Below are positions 53,896 through 63,999 of a stretch of 64,000 nt of DNA, one piece after another (positions within the stretch are counted from its first letter, which is position 1; each line of letters opens with the position of its first letter). Source of the DNA: Cochliopodium minus (Eukaryota > Discosea > Himatismenida > Cochliopodiidae); NCBI GenBank assembly GCA_024220525.1, contig JAMYWO010000064.1, forward strand, positions 107,804 to 171,803, read 5' to 3'. A program made the position numbers and the translations under genes. Below the pieces are notes generated by a model. The model was not told the DNA's origin. It made no database searches and worked only from the letters and a program-made list of their open reading frames with translations.

Positions 53896-55671
53896 ATGCC
53901 ACTATTAAAAAATTTGACCAATATTGAAGATTTGGATGAGGAGACTTTGATGGAACTAGAGAAGAATGGAATTAAAACAGGTAAATCCGATAAATATAAA
54001 TTTTATGTTGAAATATATTGGGCATGATTCAATTGATATCCACTCATTCCATTCTTTCTCTCGAAAAAATATAATTTATAATTAAAAAATTCAGCTGATA
54101 ATCTTGCAAAGTAAAGAATAAAATTTTATTTATAGCATGGATAAATAGATATTAGAATATCAATCAACATCATTTCCCAAATAGTATATTATGATGTTTT
54201 TTTTTTGAAATCACAATTAAATAAAATTTTTATTTTGAAAAAGTGGAATGCTTTCTATCATCGCCAAATATATCCAAAGCAAAAATAGAAAAACAAAAAA
54301 TGGAGAGGATCACAAAACAAATACAGCTGATCTATCAACCGATGCTATCGATGAACGCGCTCGACTATCTCCAAAAGATCGAGAAAGAGGAGAAGATCTT
54401 CCACATCAACGAGACGATAGATAAAATGATAGGTGGAGGGTTGAGCACGAAGGATATTTTGGAGATACAGGGTTCTAGTGGTACAGGGAAAACACAAATA
54501 TGTTTTTTGATAAGTTATGCTTTGAGTTATAAATACGAAAAAAAAGGTGAAATCACAAAATATTAATAAAAATTTTTATGTTCAAAAATCAAAAATTCTT
54601 ATAAAAAAATGAAACAAAATAAATAATAAAAAACTTTTTTAAAATGTTCAATTTAAAATGAAGAAATAAATTCAAAAAAATGTGACATAAGATGAAATAA
54701 AAAATAAATCCAATAAAAAATTTTTTAAAAAAAATACAAAAAATAATAAAAATTGAGTATATTTTTAAAGAAAAAATTAAATTAAAAAATATATTTTTAA
54801 TAGTGATTTATGTGGACACCAATAATTCCTTTGCTCCAAGTAGAATATTGGAAATAGTAAAAAAAGAGTTTTATGGGGTTTCTGTTGGGGAAGATGATAG
54901 TGACACAGTTTTAAAGGAGAGGGCTCAGGAGGTTTGTAATGATTATCAGAACAAATATTTGGACGCTTTGTCTCGGATCGATTGTCACAAAGTCTACGAA
55001 ATTTTTGAGTTAATGAATTTTTTGGAAAAAATAGAAAATAAATTGATAGAGGAGGTATTAAAATAAAATAAAATAAAAAATAAAAAAAATAATGAAATAT
55101 AAATAAATAAAATAAAACAAAATAAATAATAAAAAAAAAATAATATAATAATAAAATAAAAAATAAAAATAAAAATAAATAATAAAAATTTGATAAATAA
55201 ATAAAAAAAAAAAACAAAAAAACAAAAATAAAAGAATCAATAAAATTGTAAATAAAATAGAAGATAAAAAAATGTTAAAATTTTTTAAAAAATAAGAAAA
55301 ATAAAAACAGTGAAAACGAAACTTGTTTGATTATTATAGACTGCATAGCTTCTCTCCTCTCCCCCATTCTCTTTGTCAAACATCCCTCTTCTTTCTCTCT
55401 TATGAATGATTGTGCAAAAAGGCTGAAATACCTCGCCGTTCAATACAACGTTTCCATAGTCCTCACTAACTACACTGTACAAGAAGGTAAAAAGGCTGCT
55501 TTGGGTGAATTTTGGAGTTTCGTTCCTGACATTTCTTTGTTTATTGAGTCTGTCGATACAAAAGGAGACAGAAAGTGTATCACTGTTTCCAAATCCAAAA
55601 AATCCTCCAAAACTTTCAATTTTTTTTCAATAACTCAATTCGGCATAGTTTTTGACGAAGAAACCAAATAA
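53896..55671 (+). CDS. RAD51D: RAD51 paralogue, RAD51D type
   Basis: MPLLKNLTNIEDLDEET begins a small helical N-domain. After two short introns comes IDKMIGGGLSTKDILEIQ and Walker A GSSGTGKTQ. The next exons give VIYVDTNNSFAPSRILEI, KVYEIFELMNFLEKIE, then Walker B LIIIDCIASLLSP, RLKYLAVQYNVSIVLTNYTV and LGEFWSFVPDISLFIES. The FWSFVPD segment is characteristic of RAD51D rather than RAD51 or XRCC3. RAD51D works in the BCDX2 complex, promoting RAD51 loading in homologous recombination. Stop is at TAA 55669-55671, 63 bases from the end of the convergent C39-like gene. Exons at about 54095-54150 are uncertain. Confidence 0.88.
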
Positions 55672-57115: not shown

Positions 57116-57962
57116 ATGCGTAATTTTCTCTTTTTTTTATATTTCATGTTCAATTAATCTTTCTTTTCAAAATTTTCTTCCAGATAATCAAATTCCAGGG
57201 CAACAAATTCCAGGACAACAAATGCCAGGACAACAAATGCCAGGCCAACAAATGCCAGTGCAACAAATTCCAGGTATAAAAAGTTTTTGAAAGAAAAAGA
57301 AAAGAAAATTTATATTTTTGGATCAATTATCTTCTTAATATCAAAATTTAACCATAATTTTAATTAGGTCAACAATCATACCCACCACAACAAGGTTATC
57401 CACCACAACAAGGCTATCCACCACAACAAGGTTACCCACCACAACAAGGATACCCTCCACAACAAGGTTATCCACCTCAACAAGGATATCCTCCACAACA
57501 AGGTTATCCACCACAACAAGGATACCCACCACAACAAGGATATCCACCACAGAATCCACCTCAACAAAATCAGACAAAATTAGGAAAAGATGGAAAAGAG
57601 AAAAAGAAAAAAGATAAAGAAGGTAAATTCAAATTTCATTCAAATCACATAATCAAATTCAAAATTATCTTTCGAAATTTCAAATTGAAATACTTTCATC
57701 CTTTAAATACCTTTACCTATAATAGGAAAAGAAAAAAAGAAAAAAGAAAAAGATAATAAAGGATATCCTCCACAACAAGGATACCCACCACAACAAGGAT
57801 ATCCTCCACAACAAGGAGGAATGCAAGGATACCCTCCACAACAAAATCCACCTCAATCATCATCATCTGGAAAAGAAGGTAATCCTCTTTTGATTTTTTC
57901 AAATTTTTTTAATTTATATCCTTTTTTTTTAAATAGGAAAAGAAAAGAAAAAGAAAAAATAA
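57116..57962 (+). CDS. YPPQQG-repeat low-complexity protein
   Basis: Exons 57116-57119 (ATGC only), 57184-57273, 57368-57622, 57726-57878 and 57937-57962; all introns phase 1. The product has six [10 protein letters not shown] units, about ten YPPQQG hexapeptides, a Lys/Glu-rich block ([13 protein letters not shown]), more YPPQQG units, PPQSSSS and a second Lys block ending at TAA. Such Tyr/Pro/Gln/Gly repeats occur in annexin VII N-termini and other condensate- or membrane-associated proteins, but no folded domain is present here. The 4-base first exon is needed to supply the start. A transcript or membrane-binding role is unknown. Confidence 0.75.
57377..57552 (+). repeat. 18-base coding tandem repeat (TACCCACCACAACAAGGN)
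   Basis: About ten copies of an 18-base unit encoding YPPQQG, with synonymous changes between copies. A shorter block of the same unit recurs at about 57760-57845. Confidence 0.9.
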
Positions 57963-58057: not shown

Positions 58058-59176
58058 TTATTTTGAATCTATTTCTTTTTGGACAAGGATATAACTTTCA
58101 ATTTTCTTCGAGATTTCTCCCCAATACTCTTTGTTTTGCTCTTTACACCAAGCGATATAAAAGATTATCTTCTTTGAAGCAACAAAACATTTTTTCTTTA
58201 GAGATTTATCAACACCCTTCTCCAATTTTGAACAATCTACCAATAGATTGTATAAATGAGATAAACTTCTTAGAGTATAATCAGGAACATTCAAAATACG
58301 TTTTATATCTTCCAGAATAGCCATCGAAAAGTATTTATCACCTCCCAGAAAAGAGGATCTCAGTATTTTGCCAAACAACGAATTAAAGATAGAGATTAAT
58401 GAATCGTGTATTGTATTGCTTTGCAGGACATCAGATAGCTCCATCACACATACACATATATTCACTTTCATTTTATCAGAAATGTCTCCATTATAAAATC
58501 TCCTCACAAAGGCATAACAGTAGATCGATTCGATTATATTGAAGATCAAAAGTGGATTAGGTTTCAATGATGATAATTTGGAAAATGTGGGTTGATTCAG
58601 GAGATGTGGAGGGATATCATTCATATATTTTTTGTTCACTGAAATTTCTTCAACTTTTCCTTCTTTGGATTCGATTTGATTGCATATCATTCCCTTATCA
58701 TCTTTGTTTCCTATTTCTTCAATCAATTTCTCCTTTTTCATCCACCAAGGTTCCCATAACTCAATTATATCTCCAAAATTCTTTCTCTTTATCAATTCTT
58801 GGAACTCCCTCTTCTGATTCTCTGTCAAATGATCCAAGATCTGAAGCATTCCCTCATCATTCTCTTCCTCAAGCAGATTCATCTCCTCTATCCTCTCCAA
58901 AGCCTCTTCATCCATTTCCCTTTCCTTCTCCTTATAATCCTCCCCATCCTCTTTTCCTATCCTATCCAATATCTCCTGCATCTTTTTCCTTTCTTCTTCT
59001 CCCACCTTTTCATTCTTCAACACTTGTGTCAATGATTCGTGCTGGAATTCATTCACGCAATTCACGTTATGTTGTTTGTAGCAAGTCAATGAACATGTAG
59101 GTATTCCACATTTTGGACATCTATATTTGCTGCATTGCTTTTCACATATCTTGCATATTTTATCTGTTGTTTCCAT
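58058..59176 (-). CDS. ZNHIT2: ZNHIT2-type HIT zinc-finger protein
   Basis: Intronless, 372 residues. The N-terminus is a HIT zinc finger: CKICEKQCSKYRCPKC, then PTCSLTCYKQH and C-V-N, with eight Cys/His ligands. An acidic coiled region follows (KMQEILDRIGKEDGEDYK), then the FGDIIELWEPWWMKKE segment typical of ZNHIT2 and a helical C-terminal domain (NPLLIFNIIESIYCYAFVRR, MELSDVLQ). Known role: ZNHIT2 binds RUVBL1/2 and links the R2TP/PAQosome to U5 snRNP assembly. It is divergent from the first F-box/histone-fold gene, 174 bases between starts, and convergent with the YPPQQG gene. Confidence 0.85.
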   Translation of the reverse strand: METTDKICKICEKQCSKYRCPKCGIPTCSLTCYKQHNVNCVNEFQHESLTQVLKNEKVGEEERKKMQEILDRIGKEDGEDYKEKEREMDEEALERIEEMNLLEEENDEGMLQILDHLTENQKREFQELIKRKNFGDIIELWEPWWMKKEKLIEEIGNKDDKGMICNQIESKEGKVEEISVNKKYMNDIPPHLLNQPTFSKLSSLKPNPLLIFNIIESIYCYAFVRRFYNGDISDKMKVNICVCVMELSDVLQSNTIHDSLISIFNSLFGKILRSSFLGGDKYFSMAILEDIKRILNVPDYTLRSLSHLYNLLVDCSKLEKGVDKSLKKKCFVASKKIIFYIAWCKEQNKEYWGEISKKIESYILVQKEIDSK

Positions 59177-59350: not shown

Positions 59351-61238
59351 ATGAATAATGTTCCAAAATATATCTTGTAATTGTTCATAAACAAATAAAT
59401 ACTTTATTGATTTTTCAATTTAAAAAATTTTTTTCAAAGTCACGATATCCTCTCAGATTTTTCGAATTTCTTCCAAGATTATCTCAATTATCGACTTGTC
59501 TGTAAAAAATGGAATGAAATGATGAAATCTCCTCATTATTGGATGATCGTATTTAACAAGAATAAAATTCTTTTTGAAGAGAATGGATTGATCTCAAGAA
59601 ATGAAAGGATAGAAAAGAATGAGAATACGATAAAAGCATTGTTTCTTGAATTGAACATCAAAAAAGGGATTTATTTTCCAAATAAAAATCCACTGTAAAA
59701 AAAAAAAAAAATTTTAATATTTCAATTATTCTTTTTTAAAAGATATTTCAACAAAATTTCTGTACGAGGTTTGTGCCAAGATATATTAGATAATATAAGA
59801 TATGATCGAAAATTTAGTAGTGCCGCAGTATGTTTATTGCAAGAAGTGGTGGAAGATTCTTTCATTAAAGTATTCCGGAGCCAAACAGAAAACAATGAAG
59901 AATACAAGGAATCAGGGATACTGTTGAAGTGTAGATTTGATGGTGAATTAGATGAAAAAGTGAGAAAATATTTGAAGGGAAGTTCTAAAAGAGAAGATAC
60001 TGAGGAAGAAAATCAAACAAAAAACAAAAGAAGGAAAATAGATGATAAAGATGCAAATGAAAAAAAAAATGAAGAGAAAAAAGAAGATTTAGATTTGATA
60101 GATGATAGCACTGATGAAGATTATGTCCTTGATGAAAATGATGTTTTAGAAGGGGATATGGAATATGATGAGGAATCAAACAGTCAAGATTACACAGACG
60201 AAAGTGTAAAAAAAACTATTATTTATTATTCAGTCTTTTTAATCAATAAATTTTTTTTTTTTTTTTACATTAAAGACAGAAAGGGACTCTGAGGAAGAAA
60301 TAAAGTACCAAAAAAAGAGACAAAGAAAGATCAATGAAAATTTTGAAGTTGAACTCAATTCTGCTGAAGATTCTGATGACTGGGACACTTATTTTAAAAA
60401 CAAACATTTTGATCAGCCAAGAATGTTCAAACTCTTAAACTCATTCACTGAAATTTCAAGGTTAAAAAAAATTTTTTCAAAAAAAAACTCTTTTTATTTA
60501 TTAATCACAATTATTAGATTTAAAATTTCAGAGATATTTGAAGAGATCTTGTTGAACAAAGATGATTTCTTGTGGAATCATTTCGAAGAACAAGATTATG
60601 AAGATCACGTTTATGGGCTGATTGAGAAAGGAGAAACTAAGAGCAGAGACGGGGTTCCATACGCCATGTTAATTGCACATAATTATCCTGAATTATTAGA
60701 AGTAAAAAAAAATATTTTATTAAGAATTATTTTGTAATATATTTCTTTTTTTTTTTTGAATAAAAAAGAGAATTTGCCCAAATTGTGACTTTGGAAAGGA
60801 AAAAAAGCCTTACACAGAATACGAAACAAAGTTGTTCAAGTTTTTAGAAGAAAGAGATGAGAATGGAGACACCTTACTTTGTGTGGCCAACGAAATTGGT
60901 CCTGTGATTGAATATCTCGTTAACAAAAAAAGAAATTTGAATGTTCAAAACAATGACGGTGAAACTGCATTACATGTTGCAGTGATGGAAGGAAATTATG
61001 ATGTTGTTCATACTTTAACTGGGTAAGAAAATTTATAATAAAAAATTCTTTATTTTTTTTTTACAAAAATTTATTTTTTGATAGGTACATCAATGAAGTA
61101 GATCCTTTTATTAAAAGTAATGATGGTAGAACTCCTTTGGAACTTGCCCTTTATTTGAAGGAAATTGGTTCTTCATGTGGTTCCTTAAAGGACATAATTA
61201 CTATGATTCAGAACCTGGTAGAGGAGAAAAAGAATTAA
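59351..61238 (+). CDS. F-box / histone-H3-like fold / acidic tract / ankyrin protein, copy A
   Basis: Seven exons: 59351-59376, 59440-59694, 59743-60205, 60276-60460, 60518-60701, 60769-61022 and 61085-61238, exactly 506 codons. Residues 1-50 are an F-box (NVPKYIL...YLNYRLVCKKWNEMM). Residues 95-173 read SVRGLCQDILDNI, DRKFSSAAVCLLQEVVEDSF and IKVF..., closely following histone H3 alpha-1, loop L1 (D-x-R-F-x-S-S-A) and alpha-2 (LQE-x-x-E), then a basic alpha-3-like KVRKYLKG. Residues about 205-248 are strongly acidic (DDSTDEDYVLDENDVLEGD). A CxxC pair (RICPNC) precedes two ankyrin repeats (DENGDTLLCVANEIG, DGETALHVAVMEGN, DGRTPLELALYL). A chromatin-directed ubiquitin-ligase adaptor is inferred. 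Confidence 0.8.
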
Positions 61239-61358: not shown

Positions 61359-63253
61359 ATGAATAATGTGCCAAAATACATCTTGTAATTGTTCATATTC
61401 AAAAATAAAAAACTTATTTGGATATCAATTTCTTTCAGTTACGATTTCCTCTCAGATTTTTCGAATTTCTTCCAAGATTATCTCAATTATCGACTTGTCT
61501 GTAAAAAATGGAATGAAATGATGAAATCTCCTCATTATTGGGTGATGGTATTTAACAAGAATAAAATTCTTTTTGAAGAGAATGGATTGATCTCAAGAAA
61601 TGAAAGGATAGAAAAGAATGAGATTACAATAAAAGCATTGTTTTTTGAATTGAGCATCAAAAAAGGGATTTATTTTCCAAATAAAAATCCACTGTAAAAA
61701 AAAATATTTTTCAATATTTCAATTATTCTTTTCTTTTCAAAAAAGATACTTGAATAAGTTTAGATTTGGCGAATTGTGTCAGGCTATATTGGATAAATAT
61801 AAGAAATTTGCGAAGGATGGGAGATTTAGTAGTGCGGCAACATGTTTATTGCAAGAAGTAGTGGAAGATTCATTCATCAAAACTTTCAAGAATCAAATCG
61901 AAAACAACGAACAATACAAAAAAGCGGGAGTTTTGATGGAATTTGAACCATCAAATAAAGTTAACAAAAAAAGAATGAAAGAGTATTTGAAGGGAAACTT
62001 TTGGGTGGAAGATTATAATGAAGAGAATAAAATAAAGAACAAAAAAAGGAAATTGGGAGAGGAATGTATAAATGATAAAAACCTTGATGATAAAGTTAAA
62101 ATTGAAAGAAAAGTTGAAGAGAATGAAGATTTAGGTTTGATGGAAGATGACAGCAGTGATGAAGATTTTTTACTTGATGAAAAGGATATCTTGGAAGGGG
62201 ATTTGGAGTATGATGAAGATAATAAAAGTGAGGATAATAATAATGTGGAAAAAAATGTAAAACAAAAAAAAATTTTTTTTAAAAAATGATAAAATACCAA
62301 TTAAAAATTTTCTCGAAAATTTTTTTTAAAGGAGGGAAGAAATGTTTTCGAGGATTCTTTTTTTGAAGCAAAAAGAAAGAGGAAAGATCAAAAAACATTC
62401 TACCAAAGGAACTATTCTGAAGAAGACTCTGACGATATTGATAATTACTTCCAAAAGAAGAATTTTAATCAAATTAACTATCACAAACTAAACAATTCTT
62501 TCAGGGAAGTTGCTTTGTAATTCAAAAAAAAATAATTTTTTATTTTTTTTTAACTTTATTTTTCAATAGAACTCCCATTGAAAACAATTATGAGGATTAT
62601 GTTTTGGACGCTCACAATATTTTGTACGTTGGTTTTATTAAAAGTGAATATAAAACTGTTCTTACTAATTTAGTTGAGAAAGGAGAGACGAAGAGCAGGG
62701 AAGGAATACCTTATGCAATATTAATTGCTCAAAATTGTCCGGAATTGTTAGAAGTAAAATAACAGACAAAAATTAATAAATATATATTTTTTTAATGCTA
62801 ATTTTTTAAAAGCGAATTTGTGGTGATCATAATTCCATAAGTAAAGAAAAAGTACTCAAGTTTTTGGAAGAAAGAGATGAGAATGGAGACACCATACTTT
62901 CTTTCGCTGACGAAATTACTTCTGTGATTGAATTCCTCGTTGAAAATAGCCGGAGTTTGAATTTACAAAATAATGACGGAGAAACTGCATTGCATATTGC
63001 TGTGTTGGAAGGAAATCATGATGCTGTTAGAGTTTTGACAGGGTAAAAATTAAAAAAAAAAGAACTAAATTTATTTTTTCAAAACTTTTTTTTTGATAGA
63101 TATGTTAGCGAAGTGAATCCTTTTATCAAAAGCAATGATGGTAGAACTCCTTTGGAACTTGCTCTTCTTTTGAAGGAAATTGGTTCTGTTGATGATTCTT
63201 TGGGTGGAACAATCACTTTATTAAAAAACTTGGAGGAGCTTAAAAAAAAGTAA
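61359..63253 (+). CDS. F-box / histone-H3-like fold / acidic tract / ankyrin protein, copy B
   Basis: Exons 61359-61384, 61439-61693, 61746-62256, 62332-62516, 62570-62753, 62813-63042 and 63100-63253 give 514 residues. Intron positions and phases match copy A exactly, and the gene starts 120 bases after it. The histone-like region is the clearer one: RFGELCQAILDKYKKF, KDGRFSSAATCLLQEVVEDS, F-I-K-T-F, and a basic NKKRMKEYLKG. The F-box (FLSDFSNFFQDYLNYRLVCK), acidic tract (MEDDSSDEDFLLDEKDILEG) and ankyrin repeats (DGETALHIAVLEGNHDAV) are conserved. The CxxC pair of copy A is replaced here (RICGDH), so that motif is not essential. Middle regions differ more than F-box or histone-like parts. 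Confidence 0.8.
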
Positions 63254-63358: not shown

Positions 63359-63999
63359 ATGGAATATTTGGCTTGGGAATTATTTTTTGTTGCATTATTG
63401 AGTTTTTTTGGATCCTTTCAGGCATTTCTCTCCACAACTATTTTGAAAGATCAACAATTCAGCTTGAAAAAAGATCAAGGTAAAATAAATTGATCTTTAT
63501 TCCAACCAATTATCATACCCCTTTAGATTTTCAAGAACATAAAGTCCATTTATAAAAGAACAAAATCCATTTATAATTGAATAGATTTATATTTTTAATT
63601 AACAATCAAAATTATACAATCCCTTTTGATTATATAGAATGATTATATGAATAATACAGTTTTCTAACATATCATTTTTTAATTAGCGCTATAAATATAT
63701 TCTTTCTTTATCCCTAACAAAATTATAAATTTTTTTTTTTAAAATTAGTTTCACCACTTGCAAGACATCTTTTCGGAGCATGGACATTAGTTGCATCATT
63801 TGTTAGACTCATTTGTTCATATCATATCCATGAGAAAGGTATTTATCTAGCAACGATTGTCACCTTCGTTATTGCCCTTTATATTTATTCTTATCAATGC
63901 TTTGTGGCAAGATCCATTCCAATAGTTAAAGCACTTCCACCATTCATTGTGGCAACAGGAAATCTTATTTGGATGATATCAGTACATAGATTATATTAA
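63359..63999 (+). CDS. ERG28: ERG28-like sterol-biosynthesis scaffold
   Basis: Two exons (63359-63479, 63749-63999) give 123 residues, normal length for the family. Four hydrophobic segments: WELFFVALLSFFGSFQAFLS, HLFGAWTLVASFVRLICSYH, IYLATIVTFVIALYIYSYQC and PPFIVATGNLIWMISVH. The LFGAWTL..RL..(A/S)YHI motif is typical of ERG28/C14orf1. In yeast Erg28 tethers the C-4 demethylation enzymes Erg25, Erg26 and Erg27 in the ER, so the organism probably makes its own sterols, an inference. It ends at TAA, one base before the window ends. Confidence 0.87.

Follow-up and report, generated by a model that had tools for sequence, protein, structure and literature searches.

A histone H3-like stretch in a family of F-box/ankyrin proteins of Cochliopodium minus

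How does a stretch resembling histone H3 come to lie inside a gene for an F-box protein with ankyrin repeats, and what might it do there? The question is raised by two tandem genes, copies A (59351-61238) and B (61359-63253), in a 64,000-nucleotide stretch of Cochliopodium minus DNA (contig JAMYWO010000064.1, positions 107,804 to 171,803; hereafter the window). An earlier note, made from the letters of this DNA, had pointed to a histone-H3-like fold in copy A. The window forms the end of its contig in an AT-rich assembly of 44.65 Mb and 598 contigs. A second cluster, at the extreme start of another contig (C15) of the same genome, holds diverged paralogues with the same layout, C1, C2 and C3. 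Judged by its sequence, the H3-like stretch probably descends from H3. The features that bear on this are the following.

59440 to 59694, plus strand: copy A exon 2 in a splice model, with the remaining part of the F-box (to about 59545) and then a linker; Pfam F-box-like, E 3.2e-4, 20.9 bits
59695 to 59742, plus strand: GT...AG intron 2 of copy A, in phase 2 and 48 nt long
59743 to 60205, plus strand: copy A exon 3, with the H3-like stretch and mixed basic and acidic tracts; its 3' end is at 60203 or 60205
59744 to 59875, plus strand: H3-like core of copy A, residues 95-138, corresponding to H3 61-104 (helix 1, loop 1 and roughly half of helix 2)
61746 to 62256, plus strand: copy B exon 3, with the H3-like stretch and mixed basic and acidic tracts
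61747 to 62004, plus strand: H3-like stretch of copy B, 86 codons, with a 3-residue insert in loop 1

Likeness to histone H3

Residues 95-138 of copy A align without a gap to residues 61-104 of H3 (numbered as in human H3; the genome's own H3 is one residue shorter). The earlier note had carried this gapless match through helix 1, loop 1 and helix 2. Helix 1 and loop 1 were confirmed, but the match covers only about half of helix 2 and ends with residue 138. Identity to the genome's own H3 over the 44 residues is 12/44 for A, 12/44 for C2 and 13/44 for C3, and 15/44 for B when its insert in loop 1 is set aside. In searches of the PDB with single copies the best match was H3.3 for A (E 0.16), H3 for B (E 1.0) and a histone for C3 (E 0.61), and C2 gave no match.

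We joined the H3-like stretches of A, B, C2 and C3 into a four-copy profile. Searched against the PDB, this profile reached a best E of 7.6e-5 and gave 154 matches at E up to 10, the best 60 of which were all H3, over profile positions 2-46. The reversed profile gave two matches (best E 0.54), neither of them a histone. Single copies scored 6.0-10.3 bits with a profile of the genome's own H3 and its candidate cenH3, and the real score was attained by 2 (A), 0 (B), 3 (C2) and 3 (C3) per 5000 shuffles. The highest score among 500 column-shuffled four-copy profiles was 9.2 bits, compared with 22.5 bits for the real one. Profile-profile alignment by hhalign to the own H3 and the cenH3 candidate spanned 44 columns with a probability of 54.6 and an E of 1.2e-4, while the reversed control had a probability of 0.1. 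The likeness to H3 described in the earlier note is thus upheld, the four-copy profile being significant and its reversed and shuffled controls negative.

To which histone is the stretch most alike? On the genome's own histones the four-copy profile scored 22.5 bits with H3, 2.6 with the cenH3 candidate, 0.9 with H2B, -0.4 with H2A and -0.9 with H4; two further weak histone-fold frames (L029 and L030) scored 0.9 bits or less. We also scanned 2554 six-frame stretches from both strands of the window and 61 loci (62 sources), leaving out family pieces cut by locus ends; the loci were chosen non-randomly, 18 having come from a histone search. The family itself ranked first in this set, followed by the three H3 genes of the genome (E 1.3e-5, 1.4e-5 and 3.2e-5) and then by a match at E 0.021. 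This last match, a 42-codon frame upstream of the F-box of locus L043, was the best among the fetched F-box loci; it was taken to be noise.

On these scores the likeness is to H3 specifically, and not to histone folds generally. The distinction bears on a reading in which the fold is truly H3-derived and its partner is either a histone chaperone or a histone-fold protein outside the core histones (of the type of TAF, NF-Y or CENP-S/X), so that the receptor acts on transcription or kinetochore factors. A likeness as H3-specific as this one, with 22.5 bits for H3 against at most 0.9 for H2A, H2B, H4 and the L029 and L030 frames, counts against this reading, and we regard it as rather unlikely.

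An origin from CENP-A/cenH3 was rejected, and the term 'CENP-A-like' in the earlier note was not borne out: the profile gave 2.6 bits with the genome's own cenH3 candidate, which was joined by hand across an intron, versus 22.5 with its own H3. That candidate (C182:3008-3547; L018 and L023) has a long basic N-terminal region, a longer loop 1 and an apparent intron within helix 2. The genome holds three ordinary H3 genes besides it.

Residues kept and lost

The residues that each of the four copies shares with H3 are K64, S86, A88, Q93, E94, E97 and F104, while N63, S85, A87, C90 and K102 are fixed within the family yet unlike H3. According to PMC11448003, E97 of H3 forms hydrogen bonds with the backbone at L61 and I62, and these two residues align to the start of the domain. 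Past F104 the likeness fades, and C2 and C3 are without three residues there. Copy A has E, N and E in place of L109, C110 and H113, which we take to be H3-H3' contacts, and E in place of R116. The basic helix that was said to follow the match is at most faintly indicated, and no match to H3 is seen over loop 2 and helix 3. At the other end the F-box exon and a linker directly precede the stretch, and both the N-terminal tail and the alphaN helix of H3 are absent.

The family therefore does not represent a nucleosomal H3 variant, since it has neither tail nor alphaN and its H3-H3' contact positions are changed. Insertion into the nucleosome, one of the roles that the earlier note had considered, is not supported because the sequence of tail, alphaN and loop 2/helix 3 is absent. 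What the family shares with H3 is the gapless helix 1-loop 1-helix 2 alignment over 44 residues, with seven positions invariant in the four copies; it differs in having no tail, alphaN or H3-like loop 2/helix 3 and in placing the stretch inside a multidomain protein of 506-514 amino acids.

Several results weigh against descent from H3. The Pfam Histone model gave 14.9 bits (E 0.032) on the isolated stretch of A and 18.5 bits (E 0.0025) on that of C3, short of its cut-off of 26.4, and did not match the isolated stretches of B and C2; on the full proteins E was 0.44 for A and 0.039 for C3. DUF7698 overlaps the H3-like stretch of C3 with a comparable sub-threshold score (E 0.0018, full protein), and copy B has sub-threshold Pfam matches to Tmpp129 and DUF7648. 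No copy among A, B, C2 and C3 preserves the loop 2 and helix 3 sequence of H3 (KRVTIM.KD..LARRIRG). An AlphaFold model has its helices in the expected order, at low confidence (predicted local distance difference test score 55.5), and the top three rows of a structural comparison were non-histone.

These points, together with an identity of just 12-15 residues in 44, favour convergence, in which a substrate-binding helix-loop-helix linker unrelated to histones carries a chance SSAA..LLQE..E motif. Convergence would have to account for a profile that finds H3 alone in its best 60 of 154 PDB matches, for the shuffles that seldom attain the real score, and for the rank of the genome's own H3 genes next after the family among the scanned frames. 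In addition, a histone is the top PDB match of three of the four single copies, and A and C3 share a common register. We therefore consider convergence unlikely and keep to descent from H3.

Gene models, paralogues and recombination

Copies A and B lie in tandem and each is intact, with seven exons and GT...AG introns of 48-75 nt. Splice models were built by combining candidate sites within hand-chosen ranges, which left two combinations with more than 400 open codons for A and two for B. In A the alternatives differ solely where exon 3 is joined to exon 4, and in B solely in where exon 4 begins. The models used encode 506 amino acids (A) and 514 amino acids (B) with the frame open throughout, and their other parts are as follows.

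59351 to 59376, plus strand: copy A exon 1, with the start codon, the first 8 codons and 2 bases, and the start of the F-box (in-frame splice model)
60092 to 60205, plus strand: acidic tract of copy A, residues 211-248
60276 to 60460, plus strand: copy A exon 4, starting at 60276 or 60280 (splice model)
60518 to 60701, plus strand: copy A exon 5 (splice model)
60769 to 61022, plus strand: copy A exon 6, ankyrin repeats, Ank_2 E 7.4e-11
61085 to 61238, plus strand: copy A exon 7, final ankyrin repeat and C-terminus
61359 to 61384, plus strand: copy B exon 1 (splice model)
61439 to 61693, plus strand: copy B exon 2, encoding the F-box with its linker and matching copy A at 247 of 255 bases
62332 to 62516, plus strand: copy B exon 4, starting at 62332 or 62335 (splice model)
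62570 to 62753, plus strand: copy B exon 5 (splice model)
62813 to 63042, plus strand: copy B exon 6, ankyrin repeats, Ank_2 E 2.4e-17
63100 to 63253, plus strand: copy B exon 7 (splice model)

The F-box-like model was detected in all four copies (C3 24.4, C2 24.3, A 20.9 and B 17.4 bits; cut-off 24.3), and of the F-box models PF12937/PF00646 the latter stayed under its cut-off of 20.5 in each of them. Ank_2 was likewise present in all four, with a best E of 2.4e-17. NCBIfam matches were far under cut-off, and those listed for copy A fall in its ankyrin part. The F-box family of the genome is large (150 matches scored out of 469 candidates), and a genome search with the F-box exon gave seven weak matches outside the present family (E 0.0075 to 0.22).

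Identity to A over the full protein is 61% for B and 34% for both C2 and C3. C1 is truncated by the contig start and equals C2 across the 1640 bases compared. Searching the genome with the domain of A and with that of C2 led to the same five places and nothing further. The tandem array on C15 (C15:1-5700; L032) sits at the contig start, and its real length may exceed that in the assembly. The frame of C3 ends prematurely within the ankyrin part.

Within the H3-like stretch the ratio of nonsynonymous to synonymous divergence (dN/dS) is 0.21 for A/B, at a dS of 1.54 that is near saturation, and 0.32 for C2/C3; by these ratios the stretch looks to be under purifying selection. The F-box exons behave differently, with a dS between A and B of 0.06, where the H3-like stretch has about 1.5. 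Between C2 and C3 there is no difference in 150 bases of 5' flank, nor in exon 1, intron 1 or exon 2; divergence begins in intron 2, and in exon 3, 234 of 299 bases agree. Neighbouring F-box exons are thus nearly or fully identical (59440-59694 and 61439-61693 in the window, 1477-1997 and 3425-3945 in L032), while the H3-like exons that follow them have diverged. By this pattern the F-box module has been homogenised in both clusters up to the H3-like junction, probably by gene conversion.

Such a boundary, seen in the identity of C2 and C3 through exon 2 and in the dS of A and B, could also be read as the mark of fast-evolving receptors. Their homogenised F-box module would be shuffled onto 3' modules that diversify and are directed against chromatin proteins of a foreign or selfish kind, such as the histones of large DNA viruses. 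The large F-box family of the genome would fit with this. However, dN/dS on the H3-like stretch is below 1, gene conversion in a tandem array accounts for the pattern without any conflict, and a viral link was not seen, though none was searched for. We hold this reading to be very improbable.

Is the H3-like stretch part of the same protein as the F-box? In A, B, C2 and C3 alike, the F-box exon is separated from the H3-like exon by an intron of 48-89 nt that is in phase 2 every time. Left unspliced in A or B, intron 2 would bring a stop 4 nt beyond exon 2, and in none of the four copies does the open frame ahead of the H3-like stretch contain an ATG. The exon 59743-60205 is present in the frame claimed by the earlier note and is linked to the F-box exon by the GT...AG intron 59695-59742; the seven exons that it listed were confirmed in copy A, as were the F-box, the acidic tract and the ankyrin repeats. 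On the sequence, the F-box and the ankyrin repeats, with the H3-like stretch and the acidic tract between them, almost certainly belong to a single gene. Two adjacent genes or a decayed locus, for which the early stop in the ankyrin part of C3 and the cut-off C1 could be cited, are hardly credible given the identical junction and phase in the four copies, the short gap with no start codon ahead of the stretch, the frames of A and B open across 506 and 514 codons, and purifying selection.

Other features lie near the two genes in the window.

54225 to 54566: exon of a Rad51-like ATPase (PF08423, E 2e-5)
57364 to 57870, plus strand: frames with long GYPPQQ repeats, presumably a single intron-containing gene
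58058 to 59176, minus strand: single open frame for a HIT zinc-finger protein (372 amino acids; PF04438, E 2.3e-9)
63718 to 63999: Erg28-like exon reaching the end of the window and of the contig (PF03694, E 9.7e-17)

A possible receptor for free histones

What might an H3-derived stretch do in an F-box protein? We suggest, at somewhat less than an even chance, that the encoded proteins are SCF substrate receptors, a family specific to this lineage, in which the H3-derived part would serve as a docking module for H4 or another core histone. The F-box would dock on SKP1-cullin, and the genome has six matches to SKP1 and 29 exon-level matches to cullin. As the putative substrate half we count the H3-like domain together with the acidic tract (residues 211-248 in A) and the ankyrin repeats. 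Having no tail, no alphaN and none of the H3-H3' contact residues, the H3-derived domain could pair outside the nucleosome with H4, either by itself or together with H3, or with another core histone, and the acidic tract and ankyrin repeats may supply extra contacts to a basic histone. A histone captured in this way might then be ubiquitylated, by analogy with free H3 and H4 in the ASB9-CUL5 system. That H4 or H3-H4 in particular is the target is a more tentative suggestion. More speculative again, and on balance doubtful, is the idea of a decoy H3 that, as the docking module of an SCF, catches H4 or an H3-H4 intermediate for the proteasome in a lineage with tandemly evolving receptors.

Capture of histones for ubiquitylation is proposed because of two kinds of known system, the action of ASB9-CUL5 on free H3 and H4 and that of F-box proteins on CENP-A homologues. 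The accessible part of PMC12154916 describes ASB9-CUL5, whose cullin receptor bears ankyrin repeats, as polyubiquitylating free H3 and H4 but not nucleosomes. Like the present family it is a cullin-ligase substrate receptor carrying ankyrin repeats; it uses a SOCS box and CUL5 where the family has an F-box, and that part of the source mentions no histone-like domain. The F-box proteins Rcy1, Met30 and Cdc4 of yeast and Ppa of Drosophila act on CENP-A (PMC13079627, PMC12484383). They too are SCF receptors, with an H3 variant as substrate, whereas the passages available from these two sources describe no histone-like domain in them. BRCA1-BARD1 likewise joins a ubiquitin ligase to an ankyrin domain, which reads the H4 tail (PMC10639053). 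It is a RING ligase, the excerpt of that source mentions neither an F-box nor an H3-like part, and H4 binding is not implied for the ankyrin repeats of the present family.

How novel is the combination? Queried with the full protein, a protein database yielded 11 proteins among 8000 candidates scored, each of them bearing ankyrin Pfam domains. With the F-box/H3 half of copy A there was none at E <= 10 among 302 candidates. An alignment of the four copies, its ankyrin and charged parts masked, likewise gave none at E <= 10 among the 8000 candidates sharing most words; owing to the masking and to the limit of 8000 this is a weak negative. No near-identical protein was found, which suggests that the organism's own proteins are absent from that database. 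A literature search that covered few subscription journals turned up no description of a protein with F-box and histone fold, nor of F-box, histone fold and ankyrin repeats together.

The F-box receptor is of an already known kind, and the H3-derived module is its new part. It is the substrate-binding half that defines F-box proteins. If the proposed reading is true, a helix pair of H3 has been retained outside chromatin, and a receptor that uses a piece of its substrate's own dimer partner would represent a new route to substrate recognition. Free histones may be tagged for degradation in this way.
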